A stretch of 64,000 nt of DNA from positions 48,399-112,398 of the forward strand of contig NZ_SRMF01000007.1 in the NCBI RefSeq assembly GCF_004768465.1, written 5' to 3'. A program made the position numbers and the translations under genes. The notes beneath the pieces were generated by a model. That model had not been told where the DNA came from. It made no database searches and saw only the letters and a program-made list of their open reading frames with translations. The DNA is from Natronospirillum operosum. Its GTDB lineage: Bacteria > Pseudomonadota > Gammaproteobacteria > Pseudomonadales > Natronospirillaceae. How positions within the stretch are numbered: the first letter of the stretch is position 1; every line of letters starts with the position of its first letter. Positions 2,089-36,382 of this stretch are shown piece after piece.

Positions 2089-4095
2089 ATGATCAAAGTG
2101 GCCTTGTTTCGCTCCTTGAGTCTCCGTATCCAGATTCTGTTGGTTTTGGCATTGCCCATGACAGGTATGCTGTGGCTGGGTATGACAAATTTTCTCAGCC
2201 AGTGGCAACTGTACAACGAAATGCGCCAGATTGACCGCCTGGTCCGTTATGCCATCCACGGCGGGGAACTGGTTCATCAACTACAGCGAGAGCGCGGGGC
2301 ATCCGCGCTGGTGCTGAGTGGTGGCAACAGCAGTGATCGGGACGCTCTGATCGCACAGCGCCGGTTAACCGATAGTGCGGAGCAGGATCTGGATGAACTT
2401 CTGGACGGTCTGGATGCGGCCAGTATTCATTCTGATTTCGGGCGTCTGATCCGGCAGGAGCAACAACAGCGTGAAGGCTTGCATGGCATACGCACCGCGA
2501 TTGATAACGGCCAACTCAGCCTGTCCAACAGTACCGCATGGTATTCGGACATTATTGACCACCTGCTGCACAACATTATTTTTATCTCCACCGTGACCTC
2601 CGATCCGGAGACAGTACTGCAGTTGCGGGCCTACATTGATTACCTTGAAGCCAAGGAACGGGCCGGACTGGAGCGTGCCAACGGTGCAGCTGGTCTGACT
2701 GCGGGTCGATTTGATGCAGAGCAACATCAGGCGTTCCAGCGCCTTGTGGCAGAGCAGAACCTCTATCTCTCACTGGCCATAGGGAGCCTGTCGCCGGAGC
2801 TTTCGGAGTTTCATCAGCGCACCCTGCGGGACGCTGATAACGATGAAGTGGTGCGCATCCGCCAGTTGATCCTCGACGGCGGGCTGAGTGGCGAACTGGA
2901 GCGCGTTGAGCCCAATCATTGGTTCAGCGTGACCACCGCTCGTATTGACCGGATGAAGCAGGTCGAGGATCAGATTGCGACGGCTATAATTGCCCGGGCC
3001 GATGAACTGAGGCAGGAGGCGCGGAACGCCCTGATCCTTCATTCGTCGTTGGGATTCGCTGTCTTGTTGCTGACCGTCGGACTTGCCCTGCTGCTGATTC
3101 GTGGCATTGTCACCGCGCTGGCCGCTGTGGCCCGGCAGGCAGAGCAACTTGCCGCCGGAGATCTGACCGGCAGGCTCGAAGCCGGCGGGCAGAACGAGAT
3201 TGGGCAACTCCAGAACGCAATGATACGTATGACCGATACTCTGTCGCAAACCCTGCATGAAATTTCCAGCGCCGCCGACTCTCTGGCAACCGCTTCCGAG
3301 CAGGCTTCTGCCGTTACACTTCAGACCAGCCAGGGCGTGCATCAACAGCAACAGGAGGTTGACCAGGTGTCCACCGCGACACAGGAGATGGCTTCTTCGG
3401 TCAAGGCTGTCGCGGAAAATACCAGTAGCGCGGCGGAGCAGTCACAGTTGCTGGACAGCAGTGCGCAGGCCAGCCTGGACGAGCTGAATAACGCTGTGAC
3501 ATTGATCAACGGCCTGACCGAACAGGCCACACAGACGTCCGACGCGGTCGGGCGGCTGCAGGAGCAGTGTCAGTCCATTCGCACTGTGCTTGATGTGATC
3601 CGAAACATCGCCGAGCAGACCAATCTGCTGGCGCTGAATGCCGCCATTGAAGCGGCAAGGGCCGGTGAGCATGGGCGCGGATTCGCCGTTGTAGCCGATG
3701 AGGTGCGCACCCTGGCGCAACGGACGCAAGGCTCGACCGGCGATATTCAGACCATGATTGAGCGTTTGCAGCAGGAGTCGGATCAGGCAGTTAATTATAT
3801 GCAGCTCAGCCTGGAGCAGTCGCAACAGGGCGCGGAGACCATTCAGCATGCGTCTGAACGTGTGAACCAGATTGTGCAGGGGGTTGTCGCTATCCGCGAC
3901 ATGAATACCCAGATCGCGACGGCAGCTGAACAGCAAAGCCTGGTGGTGGAAGAGGTCAATCAGAACATTGTGCGCATCAGTGATGTCGCCACACAGACCA
4001 GCGCCGGGGCAGAGGAAACAGCCGCCACCAGTCAGGAACTGGCGAAGCTGGCGGAAACCCTGCAACAGCAGGTCCGACAATTCAAACTGTCCTGA
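2089..4095 (+). CDS. Methyl-accepting chemotaxis protein with NIT sensor domain
   Basis: A 668-residue transmembrane chemoreceptor. Residues 10-30 form the first membrane helix. A periplasmic nitrate/nitrite-sensor-type (NIT) domain follows, with its hallmark [15 protein letters not shown] near residue 65. The second membrane helix (about 315-337) leads into a HAMP domain and the cytoplasmic four-helix signalling domain. The highly conserved hairpin tip ([21 protein letters not shown]) lies around residue 508. It should couple ligand binding to CheA/CheW, but no che genes are in the window, so it is an orphan receptor. No strong Shine-Dalgarno is visible before the ATG at 2089. It ends just before a remnant of pnuC on the opposite strand. 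Confidence 0.95.
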
Positions 4096-4118: not shown

Positions 4119-4284
4119 TCACGCCTGACGAAACAGCGCTGTCTGGTGTGACGGGTCGGCTTTCATCCAGGCCAGCAGGCCGAGAGTTGCCAGCCCCAGC
4201 GAGACGAAGGCGACCCCTTTCACCAAGTAGAGCCAGATGCTGACCACATCGACAGCGATCCACAGTACCCAGCCTTCGGTTTGG
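4119..4284 (-). pseudogene. Duplicated 3' end of pnuC (remnant)
   Basis: On the minus strand this segment encodes the last roughly 50 residues of a PnuC protein (TEGWVLWIAVDVVSIWLY..., ending ...WMKADPSHQTALFRQA and a stop at 4119-4121). It aligns with the 3' end of intact pnuC at 5972-6118, with about nine of ten aligned bases identical by hand. It differs by one in-frame 18-base deletion that removes LYVVLL. No 5' part is present. Together the remnant and intact pnuC bracket the diguanylate cyclase gene, so this looks like a scar of that gene's insertion. Confidence 0.85.
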
Positions 4285-4452
4285 CTAACGTCAAGCCGTT
4301 CTGATCAAGCAGGCCGTGACAAGGCGCCTCTCCGCTATTACTCAACCGTGGGTGTGATGTAATATTCACCTCGGATACGTGCCGGGCGCCACCGTCCTGA
4401 GGGTTGTTGGTTAACGCCGGTCATAGCGTGATCATTAAGTAATGGGGTATTA

Positions 4453-5937
4453 ATGGGTCAGTATCACGGCGACTCCGGCACGACCAGCGGTATTGGCGCA
4501 GTATCGAATGAGGTGCCAGCCGGCAGAGATGCCTGGCGATGGTTGCTTCTGGGTGGGCTGATACTGACGCTGTTTTATGTTGTGATTCCCTACGGTCGCC
4601 TGGCCAGCGCGGTTTACGTGGTCACCACTGCGCTGGCGGCGATCGCCGTTATCCTTGCCGTGAAACGCCGGCTGCAGCTGTTTCGTCCGGCGGCGTGGCG
4701 CCTGATTGCGAGCGCGCTGGCGCTGGCCGCGTGCGGTCATGCGGTCTGGTACTGGCTGGATCTGCGTGGTCTGGAACCCTTCCCATCGCTTGCCGATGCA
4801 TTCTATCTCGCTGTCTATCCGCTGTTCATGGCCGCTCTGTGGATGCTGGGGCAAGGCAGTGGACGGGATGAAGGTGCGCTAAGCGATGCACTGATTGTCG
4901 GTATCGCGGCGGCCGTTCCGGGTTGGGCGCTGTTGATTGCGCCGTACCTGGAGGACCCCAACCTGACTCTGGTGCAGCTGCTTGTGGCCACGGCGTATCC
5001 GGTTGCGGATCTGATTATGTTGCCGCTGGCCCTGAGGCTGGTTTTTCTGCATCGAGGCAGAGTTGCAGCCCACCTTTTCCTGCTTTGGGGCATGTTGGCC
5101 TATATGGCCGCTGACTTGTTGTACGCTCATGGAAATTCGGCGGGCTGGTATGGGCCTGGTGGCCTGACCGACGGTCTGTGGCTGGTAGCCTATGTGCTGA
5201 TTGTGGCTGCGATATGGCATCCGTCGGCGGCGTCCGAGCTGCGCTCCCATGTTTCCATAGCCGAATTGTCGGGACGACGACTTGTCGTTCTTGGGGCGGC
5301 GTCCATGCTGGCGCCGTCAGTGATTCTTGTCACCGCCGGTGTCGATGTAGAGGTGGTCCGTGTCGCCGCCATCGGTTCGATACTGCTGTTCCTGCTGGTC
5401 ATGCACCGCATGGCAGGATTGATGCGAAAGACCCATCGCCAGGCCGATGAACTGGCAAAGCTGTCGCGCACTGACCCATTGACCGGTGCTGCCAACCGCA
5501 GGCAACTGGACGTCGAACTGGAACGGGAAATGTCCCGCGCCCGGCGCTCCGGCCTGCCCCTGACACTGGCTTTCATCGACCTGGATCACTTCAAACGCTA
5601 TAACGACACCCATGGGCACAATGCAGGGGATGCCCTGTTGGAAACATTGGTGGATGGATGGCGCCCAGTCCTGCGCGACCTGGATTTGCTGGCTCGTATC
5701 GGCGGCGAAGAGTTTGTCGTGGTGATGCCCGATACGGACGTTGATGAAGCCCGGCGTGTGGTGGAGCGAATGCGGCAACGGATTCCTCAGCAGCAGACCT
5801 GTTCAGCCGGTATCGCCGATTACAGAGCCGGCGATACGGCAGAGATGCTCCTGGCCCGGGCCGATCGTGCCATGTACGCGGCAAAGCATAACGGCCGGAA
5901 CCAGGTTGCCCTCGCTGAAAAGGAAAGCCCGCACTAG
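4453..5937 (+). CDS. Membrane-bound diguanylate cyclase (GGEEF)
   Basis: This 494-residue protein has about nine hydrophobic helices in residues 25-315 and then a C-terminal GGDEF domain (about 335-490) that makes cyclic di-GMP from two GTP. The signature is GGEEF at residue 417, an active variant. RDLD lies exactly five residues before it, matching the RxxD inhibitory I-site, so product feedback is likely. The N-terminal membrane region resembles the poorly defined multi-pass sensors of many cyclases; no ligand can be named. It converges with pnuC, overlapping it by four bases. Both sides carry pnuC 3'-end sequence, which suggests later arrival at this position. Confidence 0.93.
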   Translation: MGQYHGDSGTTSGIGAVSNEVPAGRDAWRWLLLGGLILTLFYVVIPYGRLASAVYVVTTALAAIAVILAVKRRLQLFRPAAWRLIASALALAACGHAVWYWLDLRGLEPFPSLADAFYLAVYPLFMAALWMLGQGSGRDEGALSDALIVGIAAAVPGWALLIAPYLEDPNLTLVQLLVATAYPVADLIMLPLALRLVFLHRGRVAAHLFLLWGMLAYMAADLLYAHGNSAGWYGPGGLTDGLWLVAYVLIVAAIWHPSAASELRSHVSIAELSGRRLVVLGAASMLAPSVILVTAGVDVEVVRVAAIGSILLFLLVMHRMAGLMRKTHRQADELAKLSRTDPLTGAANRRQLDVELEREMSRARRSGLPLTLAFIDLDHFKRYNDTHGHNAGDALLETLVDGWRPVLRDLDLLARIGGEEFVVVMPDTDVDEARRVVERMRQRIPQQQTCSAGIADYRAGDTAEMLLARADRAMYAAKHNGRNQVALAEKESPH

Positions 5938-6605
5938 CTCACATACTCGCTGGTCAATCTGTGCGAGGGCCTGCCGGCTTTCAGCCAGGCCAGCAGCCCG
6001 AGTGTAGCCAGCCCCAGCAGGACCACATACAGCAGCGAGACAAAGGCGACTCCCTTGACGAAGTAGAGCCAGATGCTGACCACATCGACAGCGATCCACA
6101 GCACCCAGCTCTCGGTGCGCTTGCGCGCCATCAACCACATGGCCACCAGGCTGGTGACGGTGGTCGCGGCGTCGATCAGCGGGAAGGCTGCCGCTTCCGG
6201 AAACAGCGTCGGCGCCCATTCATGCACCCGGGTCATGACAAGGCCGAGCGCCGCCGAGAGCACGACGATAACGCCCAGCCACTTCAGCAGCGTGGGCACC
6301 GGGCTGAAACCGACACCTTCCACCCTGCCTGCCTGAATGCCGGACTGTGCCCAGTACCACCAGCCGTAGGTGCAGGCGGCCAGATAGACCATCTGTTCGG
6401 CAGCGGCCGAATACAGCCGAATCTGATAGAACAGCACCATGAACAGCAGCACACTGACGATGCCCACGGGCCAGGTCAGCACATGGCGCTTTGCTACCAG
6501 ATAGACCGATGCCAGATACAGCACGGTGCCGAAAAACTCGATATAACTCAGCGGGTAACCAAGCACGGTGACCAGAATCATTTCCACACTGAATAAATTG
6601 CTCAT
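5934..6605 (-). CDS. pnuC: Nicotinamide riboside transporter PnuC
   Basis: This 223-residue integral membrane protein has the PnuC pattern of seven to eight helices, including the Trp/Tyr-rich segment AACTYGWWYW and the VDVVSIWLYFVKG loop near the C-terminus. The family carries nicotinamide riboside by facilitated diffusion, and intracellular phosphorylation traps the substrate. The start at 6605 overlaps the nadR stop as ATGA, so translation is coupled and the transporter is made with the kinase that traps its substrate. Its own 3' end is duplicated at 4119-4284 beyond the cyclase gene. Confidence 0.95.
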   Translation of the reverse strand: MSNLFSVEMILVTVLGYPLSYIEFFGTVLYLASVYLVAKRHVLTWPVGIVSVLLFMVLFYQIRLYSAAAEQMVYLAACTYGWWYWAQSGIQAGRVEGVGFSPVPTLLKWLGVIVVLSAALGLVMTRVHEWAPTLFPEAAAFPLIDAATTVTSLVAMWLMARKRTESWVLWIAVDVVSIWLYFVKGVAFVSLLYVVLLGLATLGLLAWLKAGRPSHRLTSEYVS

Positions 6606-17514: not shown

Positions 17515-17748
17515 CTAGTATCGGCGACCGATATCACTCAGATCATCCCGATAATGCGCCATCACGGAGCGCTCGGATTGCCCGTCTATTCCGGAGCGAT
17601 CCAGCCCGATATCACGCAGTTGTCGGTCTGACAGACTGGAGACGTCTGGTTGCGTCAGTTGCTTGCGAAGATAATGCACCAAGCTGATCCAGAGGCGGGA
17701 CAGCAGCTTGAAAGCGTCAGGCTTTCCAGAACGGTTTAGTTGCTTCAC
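17515..17748 (-). CDS. DUF1127 protein, cassette 1 second gene
   Basis: A 77-residue basic protein with the DUF1127 core LSRLWISLVHYLRKQLTQPDVSSLSDRQLRDIGLDRSGID. It starts with GTG at 17748 after an AGGAGACC site and overlaps the preceding gene by 32 bases, so the two are translated from one message. Its paralogue at 24441-24674 has exactly the same length. The C-terminal extension after DIGL (SVMAHYRDDLSDIGRRY) is shared with the paralogue (SIMPHHRDDLRDIDIWR). Confidence 0.85.
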   Translation of the reverse strand: MKQLNRSGKPDAFKLLSRLWISLVHYLRKQLTQPDVSSLSDRQLRDIGLDRSGIDGQSERSVMAHYRDDLSDIGRRY

Positions 17749-17926
17749 GCAGCAGGTCTCCTGTAGTCAGGCCCGTATCCTGTTCGGTGCGGGCTATATC
17801 CATTTCCTGCAGCTCCGTGCGCAAACGTGAACGAATGTTGTGGCGCCGGTGCCATTCCCTGATAGTGGCTCTGACACACCCTGTAAAAGACTCGGCGGCA
17901 GAGGTGGTGTTCTGTTTGGTGACCAT
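17717..17926 (-). CDS. DUF1127-associated small protein, cassette 1 first gene
   Basis: A 69-residue basic protein. Its core (REWHRRHNIRSRLRTELQEM, then DIARTEQD) is nearly identical to that of the 73-residue protein encoded at 24643-24864. It is a divergent DUF1127-like helix pair with an Arg-rich start, so RNA binding is a reasonable guess. ATG at 17926 has an AGGAGCG site. It is the first gene of a two-gene cassette and faces a MocR regulator across 236 bp. Confidence 0.82.
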   Translation of the reverse strand: MVTKQNTTSAAESFTGCVRATIREWHRRHNIRSRLRTELQEMDIARTEQDTGLTTGDLLREATKPFWKA

Positions 17927-24440: not shown

Positions 24441-24674
24441 CTAGCGCCAAATATCGATATCCCTCAGGTCATCTCTGTGATGGGGCATTATGGAGGGGTC
24501 GGACAGCCCGTCGACCCCGGCGCGATCCAGCCCGATATCGCGCAACAACCTGTCTGAAAGCCCTGAGACGTCTGGCCGCCTCTGCCGGTTGCGACGGTAA
24601 CGAACCAGGCTGACCCACAAACGGCGCAGCAGGGTGGAGGCGTCAGGCTTTCCAGAATGGCTTGGTCGCTTCAT
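24441..24674 (-). CDS. DUF1127 protein, cassette 2 second gene
   Basis: A 77-residue basic protein with LLRRLWVSLVRYRRNRQRRPDVSGLSDRLLRDIGLDRAGVDG, matching the cassette 1 protein at 17515-17748 position for position. It overlaps its upstream partner by 32 bases, the same overlap as in cassette 1. ATG at 24674 is used rather than the cassette 1 GTG. The conserved overlap shows that the two cassettes descend from one two-gene unit. Confidence 0.85.
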   Translation of the reverse strand: MKRPSHSGKPDASTLLRRLWVSLVRYRRNRQRRPDVSGLSDRLLRDIGLDRAGVDGLSDPSIMPHHRDDLRDIDIWR

Positions 24675-24864
24675 GACGCAGCTCCCCGGTTGGCAAACCC
24701 ACATCCTGTTCGGTGCGGGCGATATCCATTTCCTGCAGTTCCGTGCGCAACCGTGAACGGATATTGTGGCGCCGTTGCCACTCCCTGAAAGTCGCCCTGA
24801 CGCGCTCAGGGAAGGGCACTGCAGCTTTGGATGGGTGGTCAGAGCAATAGCGTAGGTTGTTCAT
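24643..24864 (-). CDS. DUF1127-associated small protein, cassette 2 first gene
   Basis: A 73-residue protein whose central block is nearly identical to the cassette 1 first gene (REWQRRHNIRSRLRTELQEM, then DIARTEQD). Its N-terminus (MNNLRYCSDHPSKAAVPFPERV) differs completely, so only the core is under strong constraint. ATG at 24864 follows GAGGTTACGTT. It faces a LysR regulator that begins at 24971. Confidence 0.82.
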   Translation of the reverse strand: MNNLRYCSDHPSKAAVPFPERVRATFREWQRRHNIRSRLRTELQEMDIARTEQDVGLPTGELRHEATKPFWKA

Positions 24865-24970: not shown

Positions 24971-25891
24971 ATGAACATAAAGCTGGATAAACTGCGCTCG
25001 TTCGTGCTCGTGGCCGACGAGGGCAACCTGACGCGGGCTGCCCGGCGGCGCCACACCACGCCCTCGGCTGTCAGCGAACACCTGCGGCAACTCGAAGGCC
25101 AGTTCGGCCTGCCCCTGTTTGATCGGTCCAGCCGGGGCATGGAGCTCACACCCGAAGGCCGCAAGCTGCTGCCCTCGGCCCGTCAGGCCCTGATGCAGAT
25201 CGCGGAGCTGGACGAGATTGCCCGCACACTGCGCTGTGAAGCGCCGACGACGCTGGTGCTGGGGCTGAATGCGCCACCGGAATATCTGAAAGTCGACCAG
25301 CTGCTGCGTCAGGCGGCGCAGGAACTGCCCGAGGCGCAGCTGGAGCTGATTACCAGCAATTCCTATCTGATTGTCGACCAGGTGCGCGAGGGCAAGATGG
25401 ATCTGGGCTTCATGTACGGTGATCCGAAGCATGACGTCCTGAAAGCCATGCGGCTGATGGATGTCGAGTTCTGCGTGGTCGGCCCGCCCGACAGCGAGCT
25501 GAGTGCCCTGCCGTCCGATCCGGAAGAGCGCCGGTCACTGCCCTGGATCTGGGCCTCCGACAAGTGCCCGATATCGCACATGATGCCCGACATCATCGGT
25601 TTTGAGCGCGAGCAGACCCGGGTGGTGTCCACTTCAGAAGACGAGCATGTCACCCTGTCCATGATCAGGGCAGGCCTGGGTTATGGCGTGGTGGAGAAGG
25701 AGATGGCACAGCACTGGGCGGACCGGGGCAGTGTGCGTATCCTGGCTGGGCCACCGACCACAACCAACCTCAACCTGGTGGTGCGTCGGGATCAGGCAGA
25801 GCGCAAGCCAATAACCGCCGTTGTCGAAATGATCAGCCGGCTCTGGCAGGACAGCACTACCCTGGCGGCAGAGGTGGAAGCTGTCGATTGA
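24971..25891 (+). CDS. LysR family regulator divergent from DUF1127 cassette 2
   Basis: A 306-residue LysR protein with the helix-turn-helix LRSFVLVADEGNLTRAARRRH, then TTPSAVSEHLRQLEGQFGLPLFDRSS, and a full effector domain. It is divergent from the DUF1127 cassette across 106 bp, in the same geometry as the LysR/DUF1127 pair at 13.5-14.9 kb and the MocR/DUF1127 pair at 17.5-19.6 kb. The C-terminus converges with and overlaps the ECF41 sigma gene by 35 bases. Effector unknown. Confidence 0.92.
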   Translation: MNIKLDKLRSFVLVADEGNLTRAARRRHTTPSAVSEHLRQLEGQFGLPLFDRSSRGMELTPEGRKLLPSARQALMQIAELDEIARTLRCEAPTTLVLGLNAPPEYLKVDQLLRQAAQELPEAQLELITSNSYLIVDQVREGKMDLGFMYGDPKHDVLKAMRLMDVEFCVVGPPDSELSALPSDPEERRSLPWIWASDKCPISHMMPDIIGFEREQTRVVSTSEDEHVTLSMIRAGLGYGVVEKEMAQHWADRGSVRILAGPPTTTNLNLVVRRDQAERKPITAVVEMISRLWQDSTTLAAEVEAVD

Positions 25892-26741
25892 AGGGCAACT
25901 TGTCAGGGTTGACCACCGAGTAGATGCGGAGCACCCGGCCGCCCTCCGTTTCGAGCACCGTCACTGAGCGAACTTCGCCGTCCACCCAGAGTATTGCGCC
26001 CGGCTGACCATTGACCGGCACCAGAGTGACATGCCAGCGCCCGCGCCAACTGCGCGCCAGGCCCATGGCCATTCGCGTTGCGGCTCTGATTCCATGCACC
26101 GGCTGACTCGCTGCCTGGGCCTTGCCGCCACCGTCCGCGACCCAGCACACCTCCTCGGCCATCAGGCGGGCAAAGGCTTCGCTGTCCTCGCTCATCATGG
26201 CATCGATAAAGCGGGTAACGACCTGGCGCTGCTGGTCGGCGTCAACGCGATAGCGCGGCCGTTCATCGCGCAGCCGGGCCCGGGCTCGGCTCACCAGTTG
26301 GCGGCTGGCGGCGGCGGTCTTGTTCAGGATGCCGGCAATATCTTCATGGCTGTAGTCGAACACTTCACGCAGCAGAAAAGCCGCACGCTCTTCTGCACTC
26401 AACGCTTCCAGGGTGACCAGAAAGGCCATGGACAGATCCGATGCCAGGGTCATCGTGGCCTCGGCATCCTGTTCTGTCTCATCCAGAAGCGGCTCGGGCA
26501 ACCAGGGCCCCTTGTAGGTTTCGCGGTGACGCTTCAACTCGCGCTGTCGATCAATGCCCAGGCGGGTGACCACGGTGACCAGCCAGGCCTCCGGATCACT
26601 CAACCCGGCGGTATCGACAGCCCGCCACTTGAGCCACGCCTCCTGTACGACATCTTCTGCCTCCACGCGGCTGCCCAGCAGTCGATAGGCCAGGCCGAAC
26701 AGGCGGGTGCGGGTGGCCTGATAGGTATCGATGGTGCTCAT
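25857..26741 (-). CDS. ECF41-type RNA polymerase sigma factor
   Basis: A 294-residue sigma factor. Region 2 occupies about 5-75 (TRTRLFGLAYRLLGSRVEAEDVVQEAWLKW) and region 4 about 110-165 (LSAEERAAFLLREVFDYSHEDIAGILNKTAAASRQLVSRARARL). A SnoaL-like C-terminal extension follows, with the two ECF41 signature words DGGGK (near 202) and NPDKL (near 275). In characterised ECF41 proteins this extension replaces an anti-sigma factor. A consensus ECF41 promoter lies upstream, so autoregulation is expected. The divergent neighbour is an AhpD-like protein, the standard genomic partner of this group. Confidence 0.95.
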   Translation of the reverse strand: MSTIDTYQATRTRLFGLAYRLLGSRVEAEDVVQEAWLKWRAVDTAGLSDPEAWLVTVVTRLGIDRQRELKRHRETYKGPWLPEPLLDETEQDAEATMTLASDLSMAFLVTLEALSAEERAAFLLREVFDYSHEDIAGILNKTAAASRQLVSRARARLRDERPRYRVDADQQRQVVTRFIDAMMSEDSEAFARLMAEEVCWVADGGGKAQAASQPVHGIRAATRMAMGLARSWRGRWHVTLVPVNGQPGAILWVDGEVRSVTVLETEGGRVLRIYSVVNPDKLPFNRQLPPLPPG

Positions 26742-26786
26742 GAGTTTGCTGTTCACGAAGTCGGTCCATTGCATCTTTGCAGCACA

Positions 26787-26813
26787 GACGTTTGAGCGCC
26801 AGAAAATGTGACA
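26787..26813 (-). promoter_or_regulatory. ECF41-type promoter for the sigma gene
   Basis: On the minus strand TGTCACA (26813-26807) is followed by exactly 16 bases and then CGTC (26790-26787). This matches the published ECF41 promoter form (TGTCACA, 16 nt, CGTC). The -10 lies 46 bp before the sigma gene start, so the factor probably transcribes itself. Confidence 0.85.
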
Positions 26814-26834
26814 GGACGCGGAGGGAAGACGTCT

Positions 26835-26861
26835 TGTCACATATCGATAGCGCCACACGTC
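26835..26861 (+). promoter_or_regulatory. ECF41-type promoter for the AhpD-like gene
   Basis: TGTCACA at 26835-26841, 16 bases, then CGTC at 26858-26861, pointing right towards the ATG at 26910. It is an exact second copy of the motif used by the divergent sigma gene, showing that both genes form one regulon. Confidence 0.88.
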
Positions 26862-26909
26862 CTGGTCAGGCCAATACCGGCAAAATACCGATTCAAGGAG
26901 CATTCCATC

Positions 26910-27410
26910 ATGACTGTACGTCTGGACTATTTAAAGCACGCCGCCCCCGAACCGCTCACCGCCCTGTCCGGGCTGAGTGGCTATGTGCACCACAGCGGGC
27001 TGGACCCGCAACTGATGCAGCTGGTACAGCTGCGCGCTTCACAGTTGAATGGCTGCGCCTACTGTGTGGAGATGCACACGCTGGACCTTGAGGCATTGGA
27101 AGAAAAGCCGGCACGCCTGTATCTGCTCCCGGTGTGGCGGGAGGCCGATGTGTATACCGAGGCCGAGCGTGCGGCGCTGGCCTGGGCCGAGGCGCTGACG
27201 CAGCTGCATGTCGGCCAGGACCTGGATGCGGATTATCAGGCCCTGACGCAACACTACTCACCCCAGACCATCCTGCAGCTAACCTTTGCCATTGTGGCCA
27301 TCAACGGCTGGAACCGCTTGAGCGTGGCTTTTGGGCGAGATACCGGCACCTATCAGCCGGGTGATCTGGATGGTTTTCTGGCTCAGGCACTGGCCAGGCT
27401 GCGTGCGTAA
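26910..27410 (+). CDS. Carboxymuconolactone decarboxylase / AhpD-family protein (ECF41 partner)
   Basis: A 166-residue AhpD-like protein. The redox pair and histidine CAYCVEMH start near residue 49, and the second conserved stretch FAIVAINGWNRLSVAF is near 130. The CxxC suggests a thiol peroxidase-type or reductase role; the native substrate is not known for ECF41 partners. CAAGGAG precedes the ATG at 26910. The last roughly 20 codons are duplicated in damaged form at 28424-28484, beyond the SDR gene that follows. Confidence 0.9.
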   Translation: MTVRLDYLKHAAPEPLTALSGLSGYVHHSGLDPQLMQLVQLRASQLNGCAYCVEMHTLDLEALEEKPARLYLLPVWREADVYTEAERAALAWAEALTQLHVGQDLDADYQALTQHYSPQTILQLTFAIVAINGWNRLSVAFGRDTGTYQPGDLDGFLAQALARLRA

Positions 27411-27439
27411 AGTGCCGCGCCTGGCACTGGATGGCATGT

Positions 27440-28366
27440 TCAGACTCCCGGGTCAACCCCCGTCATCTCGATGGAAAAATCCCACAAACGCTTTGCCTTC
27501 TCCAGGTCTTTGCTTGCGGGGCTTGAATCTACCTGCTGTGCAGGGCCGGCTCCTTCACTTCGTCTCCCAGGGCCAAAGTATTGCCCTCCCTCAACGTCTT
27601 TTGCCGTGGCAGCGAGGAGTGTAGGCCAGGCTCCCTGTGCTGATGAGTTCATAAATGGTTTGAGTAGCGGTACAACCAGTTGGAGCAGTATCCCTATGAA
27701 ACCGTCCACGTAGCGGTAGAGTTCGGTAGAGGCCATGCCGGGATGACAGGCAACGGCCATGACAGAGACGTTTTTCTGGCGCAGCCGGCGGTCAAGTTCA
27801 TAGGTAAAGAGCAGGTTGGCAAGCTTGCTGGCATAGTAACGCCTCCGTGGGTGGTAGTCCTTTTCTGCCTTGATGTCGTCCAGGAACAGCTCACCCTTAC
27901 CCAGTTTGTGACCGATACTGGAGACCGTCACAATTCGGCTGTTCGGCGTTGCCAGGAGCTTCGGCAGCAGATGCCCGGTGAGGGCAAAGTGCGCGAGGTG
28001 GTTGACGCCAAACTGAGACTCGAAGCCATCCTGGGTAATTGCCTTTGGATTCCACATGATCCCGGCATTGTTGACAAGAACATCGAGCTTCGGTTCCTGA
28101 GAAACGACCGCTGCCGCTGTGCTCACACTTGAGAGATCAGACAGGTCCAACATAACCAGCTTGGTATCAGCGTCTGGATAGGTCGCGAGGATATTGGCTA
28201 TCGCTGCTTCCCCCTTCTCTGCGTTGCGGCACCCGAGCAACACTCGTGCTCCTTTCCCGGCCAGCTCTTTTGCTGCTTCGAATCCGATGCCAGTATTGGC
28301 GCCCGTTATGAAGACTGTCTTGCCGTCCTGGTTGGGCACATCGGCTGCTGTGAAGTTGTTGATCAT
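27440..28366 (-). CDS. Short-chain dehydrogenase (retinol dehydrogenase-like)
   Basis: A 308-residue SDR with a classical Rossmann start (TVFITGANTGIGFEAAKELAGKGARVLLGCRN), LDVLVNNAGIM, SRIVTVSS and the active-site YYASK. Size and motif spacing fit the retinol-dehydrogenase/WW-oxidoreductase group, NADP-dependent with broad carbonyl or alcohol substrates. ATG at 28366 has GGGAGC. It lies convergent to the AhpD-like gene with only 29 bp between and is flanked on its other side by a duplicate of that gene's 3' end, suggesting insertion here. Confidence 0.9.
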   Translation of the reverse strand: MINNFTAADVPNQDGKTVFITGANTGIGFEAAKELAGKGARVLLGCRNAEKGEAAIANILATYPDADTKLVMLDLSDLSSVSTAAAVVSQEPKLDVLVNNAGIMWNPKAITQDGFESQFGVNHLAHFALTGHLLPKLLATPNSRIVTVSSIGHKLGKGELFLDDIKAEKDYHPRRRYYASKLANLLFTYELDRRLRQKNVSVMAVACHPGMASTELYRYVDGFIGILLQLVVPLLKPFMNSSAQGAWPTLLAATAKDVEGGQYFGPGRRSEGAGPAQQVDSSPASKDLEKAKRLWDFSIEMTGVDPGV

Positions 28367-28423
28367 GGGTGCTCCCAAGTGAGAAGACATGGCTTGATGT
28401 AAAATTCACATGAACAAGGTGAT

Positions 28424-28484
28424 GCCGGCACCTGTCAGCCGGGTGACCTTGATGGTTCAGGCGCTGGCCAAACTGCGCTCCTGA
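28424..28484 (+). pseudogene. Duplicated 3' end of the AhpD-like gene (remnant)
   Basis: This 61-bp stretch repeats the end of the AhpD-like gene (27342-27410): GCCGGCACC, CAGCCGGGTGA, GATGGTT, then CAGGC, CTGGCCA and a stop. An 8-base deletion breaks the frame. No upstream part of the gene is present. The last 28 bases also encode, on the other strand, the final residues of the metallo-beta-lactamase gene, so the original neighbour of this 3' end was that gene. Confidence 0.82.
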
Positions 28485-29506
28485 GGCATCAGTGACTGCC
28501 ACCAGCGCGTACCGGTCACCAGTTGACGCATATTCAGAATGTCACCCGGCACGGGCGTCGCCAGCCGAACATTCCTTTCGTCAGCCACCCGGGCGACTCG
28601 TTCAAGGGGCTCATACCAGGCATGGAAGGCCAGATCAAAGGTGCCGTTGTGGATGGGCATCATGGTATGCCCCTGCAGATCGATGTTCGCCTGCACACTC
28701 TGTTCCGGCGTCATGTGAATCTCGGGCCAGTCCCGGTCGTAGGCGCCGGTTTCGATCATGGTCAGATCAAAGGGGCCATAACGCCGGCCGATCTGTCCGA
28801 AGCCATGGAAATAACCGGAGTCACCACTGAAAAACAGGCTTTCATCGGGTGTCTTGATGACCCAGGAGCCCCACAGGCTGCTGTTGCCATCGTTCAGGCC
28901 GCGGCCGGAGAAGTGGCGCGCCGGGGTGAAGGCGATCAGTCCCTGGCCGACATTGAGTTCCTGCCACCAGTCAAATGACAGAATGTCTGTTGGACGAACA
29001 CCCCAATCGATCAGGTTCTTTTCTACACCCAGAGGGACCAGAAATTGCCGGGTCTTGCCCTTGAGTTGGCGGATCGTGGCCTTGTCGAGATGATCATAGT
29101 GGTTGTGCGAAATCAGCACCTTGTCAATCGGCGGCAGGTCAGCGACAGTGATCGGCGGGCGATGAAAACGCTTGGGGCCAATGAATGAGAAGGGTGAAGC
29201 CCGTTTTGACAACACCGGGTCCAGCAACCAGAACTCGCCATAGACCTTCAGCAACACCGAAGAGTGCCCCAGCCTGATCACAAACAGGCTGTCATTGGGC
29301 AGTTGCCGCAGTTGCTCCTGGTCAAGGTCCCGCACGGGCAGTGCTTCATCCGGGGAGGCATCCACCTTGCGTTCCATGATAAAGCGCTTCAGCAGACCGA
29401 AGAAGGTTGCGGAGGTGCCCAGTGGCATTGCTTCTTCATTGCGGAATCGACCGTTGCGGAAGTTTTTCCGCATCGGCTCATTGCGTACGACCATTTGGTT
29501 GTGCAT
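28457..29506 (-). CDS. Metallo-beta-lactamase fold hydrolase (UlaG/NAPE-PLD-like)
   Basis: A 349-residue MBL-fold enzyme. The metal-binding motif HNHYDHLD appears near residue 134, with other ligands expected in TPARHFSGR, FFSGDSGY and MPIHNGTFD. LGHSSVLLKVYGEFWLLDPVLSKRASPF is the usual strand before the active site in NAPE-PLD/RomA-like members. Related proteins hydrolyse phosphodiesters or lactones; the substrate here is unknown. ATG at 29506 follows GGGAGGG. It is divergent from a TetR regulator, with a near-perfect palindrome in the gap, so it is probably that regulator's target. Confidence 0.9.
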   Translation of the reverse strand: MHNQMVVRNEPMRKNFRNGRFRNEEAMPLGTSATFFGLLKRFIMERKVDASPDEALPVRDLDQEQLRQLPNDSLFVIRLGHSSVLLKVYGEFWLLDPVLSKRASPFSFIGPKRFHRPPITVADLPPIDKVLISHNHYDHLDKATIRQLKGKTRQFLVPLGVEKNLIDWGVRPTDILSFDWWQELNVGQGLIAFTPARHFSGRGLNDGNSSLWGSWVIKTPDESLFFSGDSGYFHGFGQIGRRYGPFDLTMIETGAYDRDWPEIHMTPEQSVQANIDLQGHTMMPIHNGTFDLAFHAWYEPLERVARVADERNVRLATPVPGDILNMRQLVTGTRWWQSLMPQERSLASA

Positions 29507-29581
29507 GGAAGACCCTCCCATAGTCAGGACAAAACCCAGAAACATAATTCAGAGTATCCTGTTCATTTAGAATTCAACAAA

Positions 29582-29602
29582 TAAACTACACCGTGCAGTT
29601 TA
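29582..29602. promoter_or_regulatory. Candidate TetR operator (21-bp near-palindrome)
   Basis: TAAACTACAC (29582-29591), one central base, and GTGCAGTTTA (29593-29602) are reverse complements except for one mismatch. It lies in the 177-bp divergent gap between the MBL gene (start 29506) and the TetR gene (start 29684). A further AAACCGCCC word follows to the right. Confidence 0.6.
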
Positions 29603-29683
29603 CATGTTGATAATGAAAAGTAAACCGCCCAGTGTATATTTCATCGCAAGGGTTTATACTGGGACCCGAGTGCAGAGGTAGCC

Positions 29684-30280
29684 ATGAAACTTTCAGAACA
29701 GAAACGCCTGAGTATCCTGCGGGCAGCAGAACGGCTGTTTTGCAGACACGGGGTCGAAAAGACCAGCATGGACCAGGTGGCAGACCAGGCCAGGGTCTCC
29801 AAACGTACCGTTTACAACCACTTTGACACCAAGGAAACGCTGTTCCACACCATTCTGCAGCAAATGCAGCAGCCCCTGGCTGAAGAGCAGGAAGTGGTGT
29901 TTGACCCGCAACAGGATATTGAGGTTCAACTGCGCAGTATCGCCGAGCAGGAGGCCCGACTGCTCTCCTCCGAGCAGGTTCTGAGCCTGGCTCGGGTTGC
30001 CTTCATGCACATGCTGCAGCGCCCGGAGCTCGCCCAGCAGTTCAACTCCGGCAAGCTTGGTTGCATGGTCTATCTGGACCGGTTTCTGCAGCAGGCGGTG
30101 GCCGCCGGTGTGCTGGACATCGAAGACATCGACCTGGCCGCCCGGCAGTTTGTCGCCCTGCTCAAATCCTTTATCTTCTACCCGCAGCTGTACGGCCTTG
30201 AGGCGCCGGACATGGCCCGGCAGCAGTACGTGATACAGCAGTCTGTCGACATGTTTCTCGCCCGATACCGCGCTCGCTGA
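29684..30280 (+). CDS. TetR/AcrR family regulator
   Basis: A 198-residue repressor. Residues 10-55 form the TetR helix-turn-helix (ILRAAERLFCRHGVEKTSMDQVADQARVSKRTVYNHFDTKETLFHTIL). The rest is an all-helical ligand and dimer domain of the TetR_C_7/AefR type (LSLARVAFMHMLQRPELAQQF). It should repress itself and the divergent MBL hydrolase through the palindrome between them. Ligand unknown. Confidence 0.92.
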   Translation: MKLSEQKRLSILRAAERLFCRHGVEKTSMDQVADQARVSKRTVYNHFDTKETLFHTILQQMQQPLAEEQEVVFDPQQDIEVQLRSIAEQEARLLSSEQVLSLARVAFMHMLQRPELAQQFNSGKLGCMVYLDRFLQQAVAAGVLDIEDIDLAARQFVALLKSFIFYPQLYGLEAPDMARQQYVIQQSVDMFLARYRAR

Positions 30281-35897: not shown

Positions 35898-36382
35898 ATG
35901 AGCTATGAATATTACGTCGGCGAATTGAATGGCTATTTGAAAGCGCTTGGCCGAGTCTGCGGACCGAGACACTCTTTTGGTGTTAAAGCAGAACGACAGG
36001 GCGGCAGGTCAATCAGTGAGTTCGTTCAGCATATTTTGGCCGAACGAAACAAGTATCATTCAGAGGTGTATGTCGGCCAGGAAGTCATAAATAGAGATCA
36101 ACTGTTTGATAGAATTGAATCGATGCTATTCGGCGGGCACATGAGAAACATAAAACCGAACAAAACACTAGGGATGACTACGCCACTGTATTTATTGAGG
36201 ACATAAATGAATATTTCGGATTAATATCTACCTCCATTAATCAAGAGGGTGTTTTCCATCCATTATTGAACAGCACTGTATTTGGGATTGAGGTATTGAA
36301 TGAAGAGTATGAGTCGTCATTTTATTTTGCTTTGGGCATCGAAGACTTGTATATATTTGTTTATTTTTGCAAGCGACGATGA
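35898..36382 (+). pseudogene. Frameshifted small gene B in the immunity-like cluster
   Basis: The frame from ATG 35898 (MSYEYYVGELNGYLKALGRV ... LFDRIESMLFGGHMRNIKPN) ends at 36206 out of register. A one-base shift around GAACAAAAC near 36157-36165 opens a second frame (DDYATVFIEDINEYFGLIST ... YFALGIEDLYIFVYFCKRR) to the stop at 36380-36382. The joined product would be about 161 residues, soluble and acidic, the usual size of an immunity protein. It starts seven bases after gene A, so they formed one operon. Confidence 0.55.

Follow-up and report, generated by a model that had tools for sequence, protein, structure and literature searches.

The 3' end of an AhpD-like gene (ahpD) of Natronospirillum operosum occurs twice, once intact and once as a diverged remnant on the far side of a complete SDR oxidoreductase gene, and the remnant probably marks a site where this bacterium gained an extra gene. 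We give a probability of about 0.5 to the reading that homology-anchored recombination with a diverged relative would have brought in the new gene along with the intact gene end, while the end already resident stayed in place beyond it. A matching arrangement of pnuC and a GGDEF gene was found in the same window (the whole stretch of DNA analysed, 64 kb), and homology-anchored recombination would, at the same even odds, explain both scars most economically.

The displaced end of ahpD

The features of the locus, in window positions, are as follows.

25857–26741, minus strand: SigJ/ECF41-type ECF sigma factor gene (Sigma70_r2, Sigma70_r4_2; start codon picked within the open reading frame 25857–26903)
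26787–26813, minus strand: ECF41-type promoter TGTCACA-N16-CGTC, directed to the sigma factor gene (motif as in PMC3426412)
26835–26861, plus strand: ECF41-type promoter TGTCACA-N16-CGTC, directed to ahpD (same source)
26910–27410, plus strand: intact AhpD-like gene (CMD family), 166 aa, whose tail at 27339–27410 is the intact copy of the repeat
27440–28366, minus strand: SDR oxidoreductase gene, PRK06197-like subfamily, 308 aa, between both tail copies
28421–28484, plus strand: diverged ahpD 3' end remnant with a stop codon, 8 nt of the intact gene being deleted from it
28457–29506, minus strand: MBL-fold hydrolase gene, Lactamase_B_2 superfamily, 349 aa (start picked within the open reading frame 28457–29545)
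29574–29610, no strand: imperfect palindrome with 18-nt arms (83%) in the MBL/TetR divergent region, candidate TetR operator
29684–30280, plus strand: TetR-family regulator gene (domain match), divergent from the MBL gene

The end of ahpD at 27339–27410 is repeated at 28421–28484 with an 8-base gap, and 11 of the 63 aligned bases are different. The direct repeat with an 8-base deletion reported in the original prediction is real, although its actual start is 28421, so that the 28424 given there was 3 nt short; the SDR gene is complete and lies between the two ahpD ends, as had been claimed. Without gaps, the repeat covers 27339–27375 and 28421–28457 (89% over 37 nt), and the gapped alignment joins 27339–27403 to 28421–28477 with a single 8-nt gap. 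Followed in codon register, 21 codon pairs (12 before the gap and 9 after it) reach the stop codons at 27410 and 28484, where TAA and TGA of the intact tail and the remnant lie opposite each other; 16 of 20 residues are identical, and a Tyr of the intact tail is Cys in the remnant. The repeat scored 60, whereas the maximum among 1000 dinucleotide shuffles was 28, and when the remnant was compared with the 4.34-Mb genome, the ahpD tail was the only other match above noise (E 2.4e-8; next 0.29), so that a chance match is ruled out. The edges of the repeat are sharp: without gaps, only 7 of 40 bases are identical on the upstream side, and beyond the stops again 7 of 40. Because its stop codon was kept in register with that of ahpD, the remnant is a true gene end.

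Antisense to the remnant lie the MBL stop codon (28457–28459), the last 8 residues of the MBL protein (QERSLASA) and one base of its ninth-last codon, the remnant starting in MBL codon 341; the remnant had indeed been predicted to encode the MBL end on its opposite strand. Most alignments of related MBL proteins to the MBL protein of the window stop at residues 336–345, and a few at 348–349. The MBL end may thus be natural or may have been formed by reading into ahpD, and in both cases the two genes adjoined. As the remnant's stop is in register with that of ahpD and MBL reads into the remnant, an ahpD 3' end once abutted MBL convergently, and the sequence backs this part of the original prediction.

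The sigma factor scored 311.6 bits for the SigJ subfamily (cut-off 271), which we take to be a part of ECF41, and 309.5 bits for TIGR02957, below the cut-off of 323; for the SnoaL-like extension that ECF41 factors carry fused at the C-terminus, SnoaL_2 matched weakly at residues 175–255 (21.3 bits, below the cut-off of 27). The AhpD-like protein scored 65.2 bits for CMD (cut-off 23), and its gene is divergent from the sigma factor gene; in ECF41/COE loci, an ECF sigma factor gene adjoins a CMD, oxidoreductase or epimerase gene. Exact matches to TGTCACA-N16-CGTC, the ECF41 promoter signature in PMC3426412, numbered 2 in the 64-kb window against 0.01 expected, and both lie between the sigma factor gene and ahpD. 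Like the ECF41/COE loci described there, the locus has divergent sigma factor and CMD genes that both carry the motif, and it looks like an ordinary ECF41/COE member that served as an anchor.

The SDR protein was assigned to its subfamily by NF004846 (355.5 bits, above the curated cut-off of 268). Its gene follows MBL on that strand at a distance of 90 bases. A simple scan found no terminator-like site between the two, so that the SDR gene may be read together with MBL under the TetR regulator. The palindrome at 29574–29610 is a possible operator of that regulator; a second inverted pair in the same MBL/TetR region is formed by 29587–29603 and 29620–29636. Domain and subfamily profile searches gave no mark of a resistance function for the MBL gene. 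The third-position GC of the SDR gene, 0.625, is 0.75 s.d. below the mean of 57 long open reading frames of the window, some of them surely spurious; since this carries little information, a foreign composition of the SDR gene was dropped.

A second displaced end at pnuC

Self-comparison of the window gave a direct repeat of 4157–4280 and 5975–6116 (79% with an 18-base gap counted), to which the following features belong.

4157–4280, minus strand: diverged pnuC 3' end remnant (the part aligned by blastn)
4453–5937, plus strand: complete GGDEF gene, between the remnant and intact pnuC
5934–6605, minus strand: intact pnuC, NMN transporter family, whose stop overlaps the GGDEF stop

By protein search, the pnuC remnant is 85% identical over residues 162–216 and contains no in-frame stop, and an MCP gene ends at 4095, ahead of the remnant and without overlapping it. 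The geometry is common to both cases, the 5' side of the new gene facing the remnant and its 3' end facing the stop of the intact gene. Six residues absent from the remnant are kept in the pnuC proteins of genomes G003 and G004, so that the deletion in the remnant is probably the later state. In both of these genomes nadR adjoins pnuC, as in this genome, and no GGDEF or MCP protein match was found in flanks of about 1.5 kb around their pnuC. At E <= 1e-30, pnuC is present in 3 of 380 genomes of the order, this genome included, and neither a pnuC donor nor an empty site was found among these 380.

In the two core blocks of the pnuC alignment (126 bases), third codon positions account for 10 of 13 differences (P 0.0016, with one third as the expectation); the full alignment gives 12 of 15 (P 0.0003) and the blastn alignment 10 of 12. 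Given this bias and the lack of an in-frame stop in the remnant, both pnuC versions appear to have diverged as working genes before the remnant arose; because the remnant does not overlap the MCP gene, the bias can be attributed to selection on pnuC at that earlier time. In the ahpD tails, third positions hold 6 of 11 differences (P 0.12). Seven of the 11 lie inside the MBL overlap; there the two reading frames share their third positions, so that selection on MBL could also produce these differences. Just 4 differences remain outside the overlap, and third positions hold 2 of these. The argument for divergence before the event is therefore carried by pnuC and would extend to ahpD by analogy, which makes pnuC/GGDEF the better example of the two. 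Note that paralogues would yield an equal third-position pattern.

Further scars were searched for with a DNA scan (40-nt limit) that covered 864 kb of this genome and, from three other members of the family, 800 kb. A protein scan covered 868 kb of this genome, a figure that includes overlaps between window pieces, with those 800 kb again as the control; the ahpD case escaped it. Besides the two window cases, no further clear scar was found in the 864–868 kb of this genome by either scan, and an elevated scar rate was accordingly dropped. The presence of two scars within one 64-kb window, the window that was examined first, is suggestive. Hits at loci L254, L260, L267, L302, L303, L305, L306, L308, L309, L313 and L314 of this genome were set aside after inspection by eye of their coordinates and codon counts; they were taken for paralogues or for repeats, either dispersed or non-coding. 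L264 and L269, which were viewed base by base, were classed likewise. Among the control hits, L277, L279 and L285 of G015 and L322 of G003 are paralogue-like, while L287 of G015 is a 94-nt, 93% repeat around a 167-aa open reading frame and apparently non-coding; the protein scan gave L319 and L323 of G003 (an 88% fragment 334 bases from its gene).

Two possible weaker brackets were seen, both with complete open reading frames between the fragment and the intact copy. At L255 (10691–10734 and 11866–12531), a 44-nt piece repeats sequence from the 5' part of a gene that was labelled DsbA-like by eye; blastn gives a match of 39 nt, below the 40-nt limit of the DNA scan; at L266 (5653–5993 and 8286–9203), the fragment fuses pieces of two genes. 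The region of L302, L303 and L306 (contig C1 of G000, about 420–520 kb) holds many dispersed direct repeats of about 40–260 nt, partly non-coding, and could be integron-like or otherwise repeat-rich. Within the window, 17529–17875 and 24455–24801 are 347-bp copies, 78% identical and 7 kb apart, of a region with a small arginine-rich open reading frame that presumably resembles DUF1127, and many adjacent LysR-type regulator-like and SDR-like open reading frames, named by eye, lie at 36000–62000.

Candidate routes of gene gain

Under homology-anchored recombination, the ancestral resident chromosome would have carried ECF41-ahpD tail to tail with TetR-MBL, and the incoming DNA of a diverged relative would have carried an ahpD allele with the SDR gene on its 3' side. 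The donor DNA would have paired with the resident ECF41/ahpD by homologous recombination, and the non-homologous end of the SDR segment would have been joined illegitimately within the resident ahpD tail. The outcome would be an ahpD of donor or mosaic origin whose end is intact, followed by the SDR gene and then by the displaced resident tail overlapping MBL, and the same process would have acted on pnuC and the GGDEF gene at 4157–6605. In the minimal mobile elements of Neisseria, recombination in conserved flanking genes likewise changes which genes lie between them; unlike there, a diverged tail was left behind here.

Recombination that is homologous at one end and illegitimate at the other (HFIR) is an established process (PMC3240628, PMC2884548); the former paper reports it for three competent species as well as for conjugation in E. 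coli, and PMC5361080 proposes it for displaced gene parts left downstream in Vibrio T6SS clusters. As in the HFIR of PMC3240628 and PMC2884548, non-homologous DNA would have been added beside a homologous anchor, whereas what is seen here is a footprint, and the two copies of the anchor are separated by 13 differences in 126 bases for the pnuC core and by 11 in 63 for ahpD. Acquired effector-immunity modules (Vibrio T6SS, Rhs) likewise have a new gene behind a homologous anchor and older 3' parts kept downstream (PMC5361080), but the displaced piece here is a gene tail without evident function, not an immunity gene. The HFIR-type trait seen at our locus is a complete SDR gene adjoining intact ahpD, with an ahpD tail at the far side of the SDR gene. 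This genome has a ComEC-family gene, which says little because the family is also present in 10 of 14 control genomes. Against HFIR stand the lack of a donor or an empty site for ahpD or pnuC among the relatives searched, the weak codon bias of ahpD, the identical look that a decayed tandem paralogue would have, and the rarity of HFIR reported in PMC5361080.

That paralogue reading, in which ahpD-SDR-ahpD2 faced MBL and ahpD2 was deleted save for the tail overlapped by MBL, fits diverged functional copies and third-position bias equally well, and it is hard to exclude because pairs of ahpD-like matches no more than 40 bases apart occur in relatives (G099 C23, G375 C9, G343 C7 and G197 C1). It requires, however, an SDR gene between paralogues and a near-complete deletion, both repeated for pnuC/GGDEF, and at E <= 0.001 only one ahpD match turns up in this genome. 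The paralogue would also need to be close, since the tails share 16 of 20 residues and the best other AhpD-like proteins listed reach at most 56% identity to the intact protein; we consider this history doubtful. The original prediction, that insertion of the SDR gene between convergent ahpD and MBL duplicated the ahpD 3' end, which then decayed, is in our estimate unlikely. Gene order and MBL overlap agree with it, and decay could have set the copies apart by the 8-base gap and the Cys in place of Tyr, but a recent duplication should have left the copies more alike than the 11 differences in 63 bases allow and was dropped as first choice, and the parallel pnuC differences resemble those of functional versions rather than decay. 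Moreover, no transposase or integrase family was found among the 20 window proteins scanned, nor any repeat pair flanking the SDR gene as element ends. What stands of that prediction is the trace of a gene gain, which the ahpD-SDR-MBL repeat probably is; the duplication by insertion fits less well.

It is quite unlikely, in our view, that TetR-MBL-SDR is the old unit and that an ahpD-bearing segment was inserted between or beside its genes and partly deleted, leaving its tail. In favour of this reading, an SDR gene adjoins MBL in at least 3 of the 390 genomes compared within the order (only matches with E <= 1e-60 counted, five candidates scored per genome): G006 and G011, of the same family, have it directly after MBL and on the MBL strand, and G308 has the order TetR-SDR-MBL. 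The rarity of this neighbourhood speaks against an old unit, as do the identities of these SDRs (42–44%) and MBLs (40–48%) to those of the window, the best SDR elsewhere being that of G215 (54%), and the lack of any SDR match (E <= 1e-4) in 29 MBL loci of relatives with flanks of about 1.5 kb. The e14 element and phage 21 integrate at the 3' end of icd and restore the gene end with their own copy, and an intact end with a displaced diverged end is the footprint they leave. A small site-specific element of this kind would match two inserts of the same geometry; yet each insert is one ordinary gene (SDR or GGDEF) with no recombinase, and the two junctions share no common core by eye, making such an element highly improbable. 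An undescribed recurrent route in this lineage that would always dock a new gene tail to tail at a stop codon, swap the resident gene end for the incoming one and leave the old end as a scar is likewise very improbable; if it were true, scars could date and polarise single-gene acquisitions genome-wide. The displaced ends look like the tidy footprint of a mode of gene gain already known, not of a new system.

Relatives and meaning of the scars

In the one other species of the genus that was compared, ahpD has a remote match (25%) and MBL and pnuC have none. Across the order, ahpD is present in 153 and MBL in 162 of 390 genomes, this genome counted in both, with best identities in other genomes of 50% for ahpD and 62% for MBL among the matches listed; in a wider collection, AhpD-like proteins reach 56% identity among the best 80 of 403 loci. 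The ahpD-MBL junction expected in relatives was found neither in 152 loci (own loci apart) nor in 60 wider neighbourhoods (20 picked for MBL, 20 for ahpD and 20 for SDR), some of which were ended by contig ends; the relatives sampled are too distant to decide the matter. An ahpD donor or empty site was likewise not found among the relatives searched, and a plasmid search with the SDR protein returned 28 records, every one below 60% identity, with no lead.

A TetR relative adjoins MBL in 12 of 29 MBL loci of relatives. In loci L198, L199 and L200, MBL adjoins SDR in G011, G006 and G308, respectively, with TetR divergent in G308; these SDRs are called PRK06197-like by their similarity to the SDR of the window. 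The recurrence suggests that MBL and a PRK06197-like SDR may be a functional pair, and because of it the SDR gene may be a non-random insert. Remote SDRs (23–27%) were also seen near an ahpD-like gene in four loci (L016, L020, L061 and L079) and, judged by identity, would be of another subfamily.

The way in which a single gene was acquired can, to our knowledge, seldom be read from the sequence afterwards. Here, a diverged displaced gene end records the entry site, the former neighbours and the divergence of the incoming allele, and the likely route is a known one. The ahpD remnant would probably mark a place of gene gain, and with two scars of this kind in 64 kb, close strains offer a test of whether the remnant belongs to the resident lineage and the intact gene to a donor lineage.
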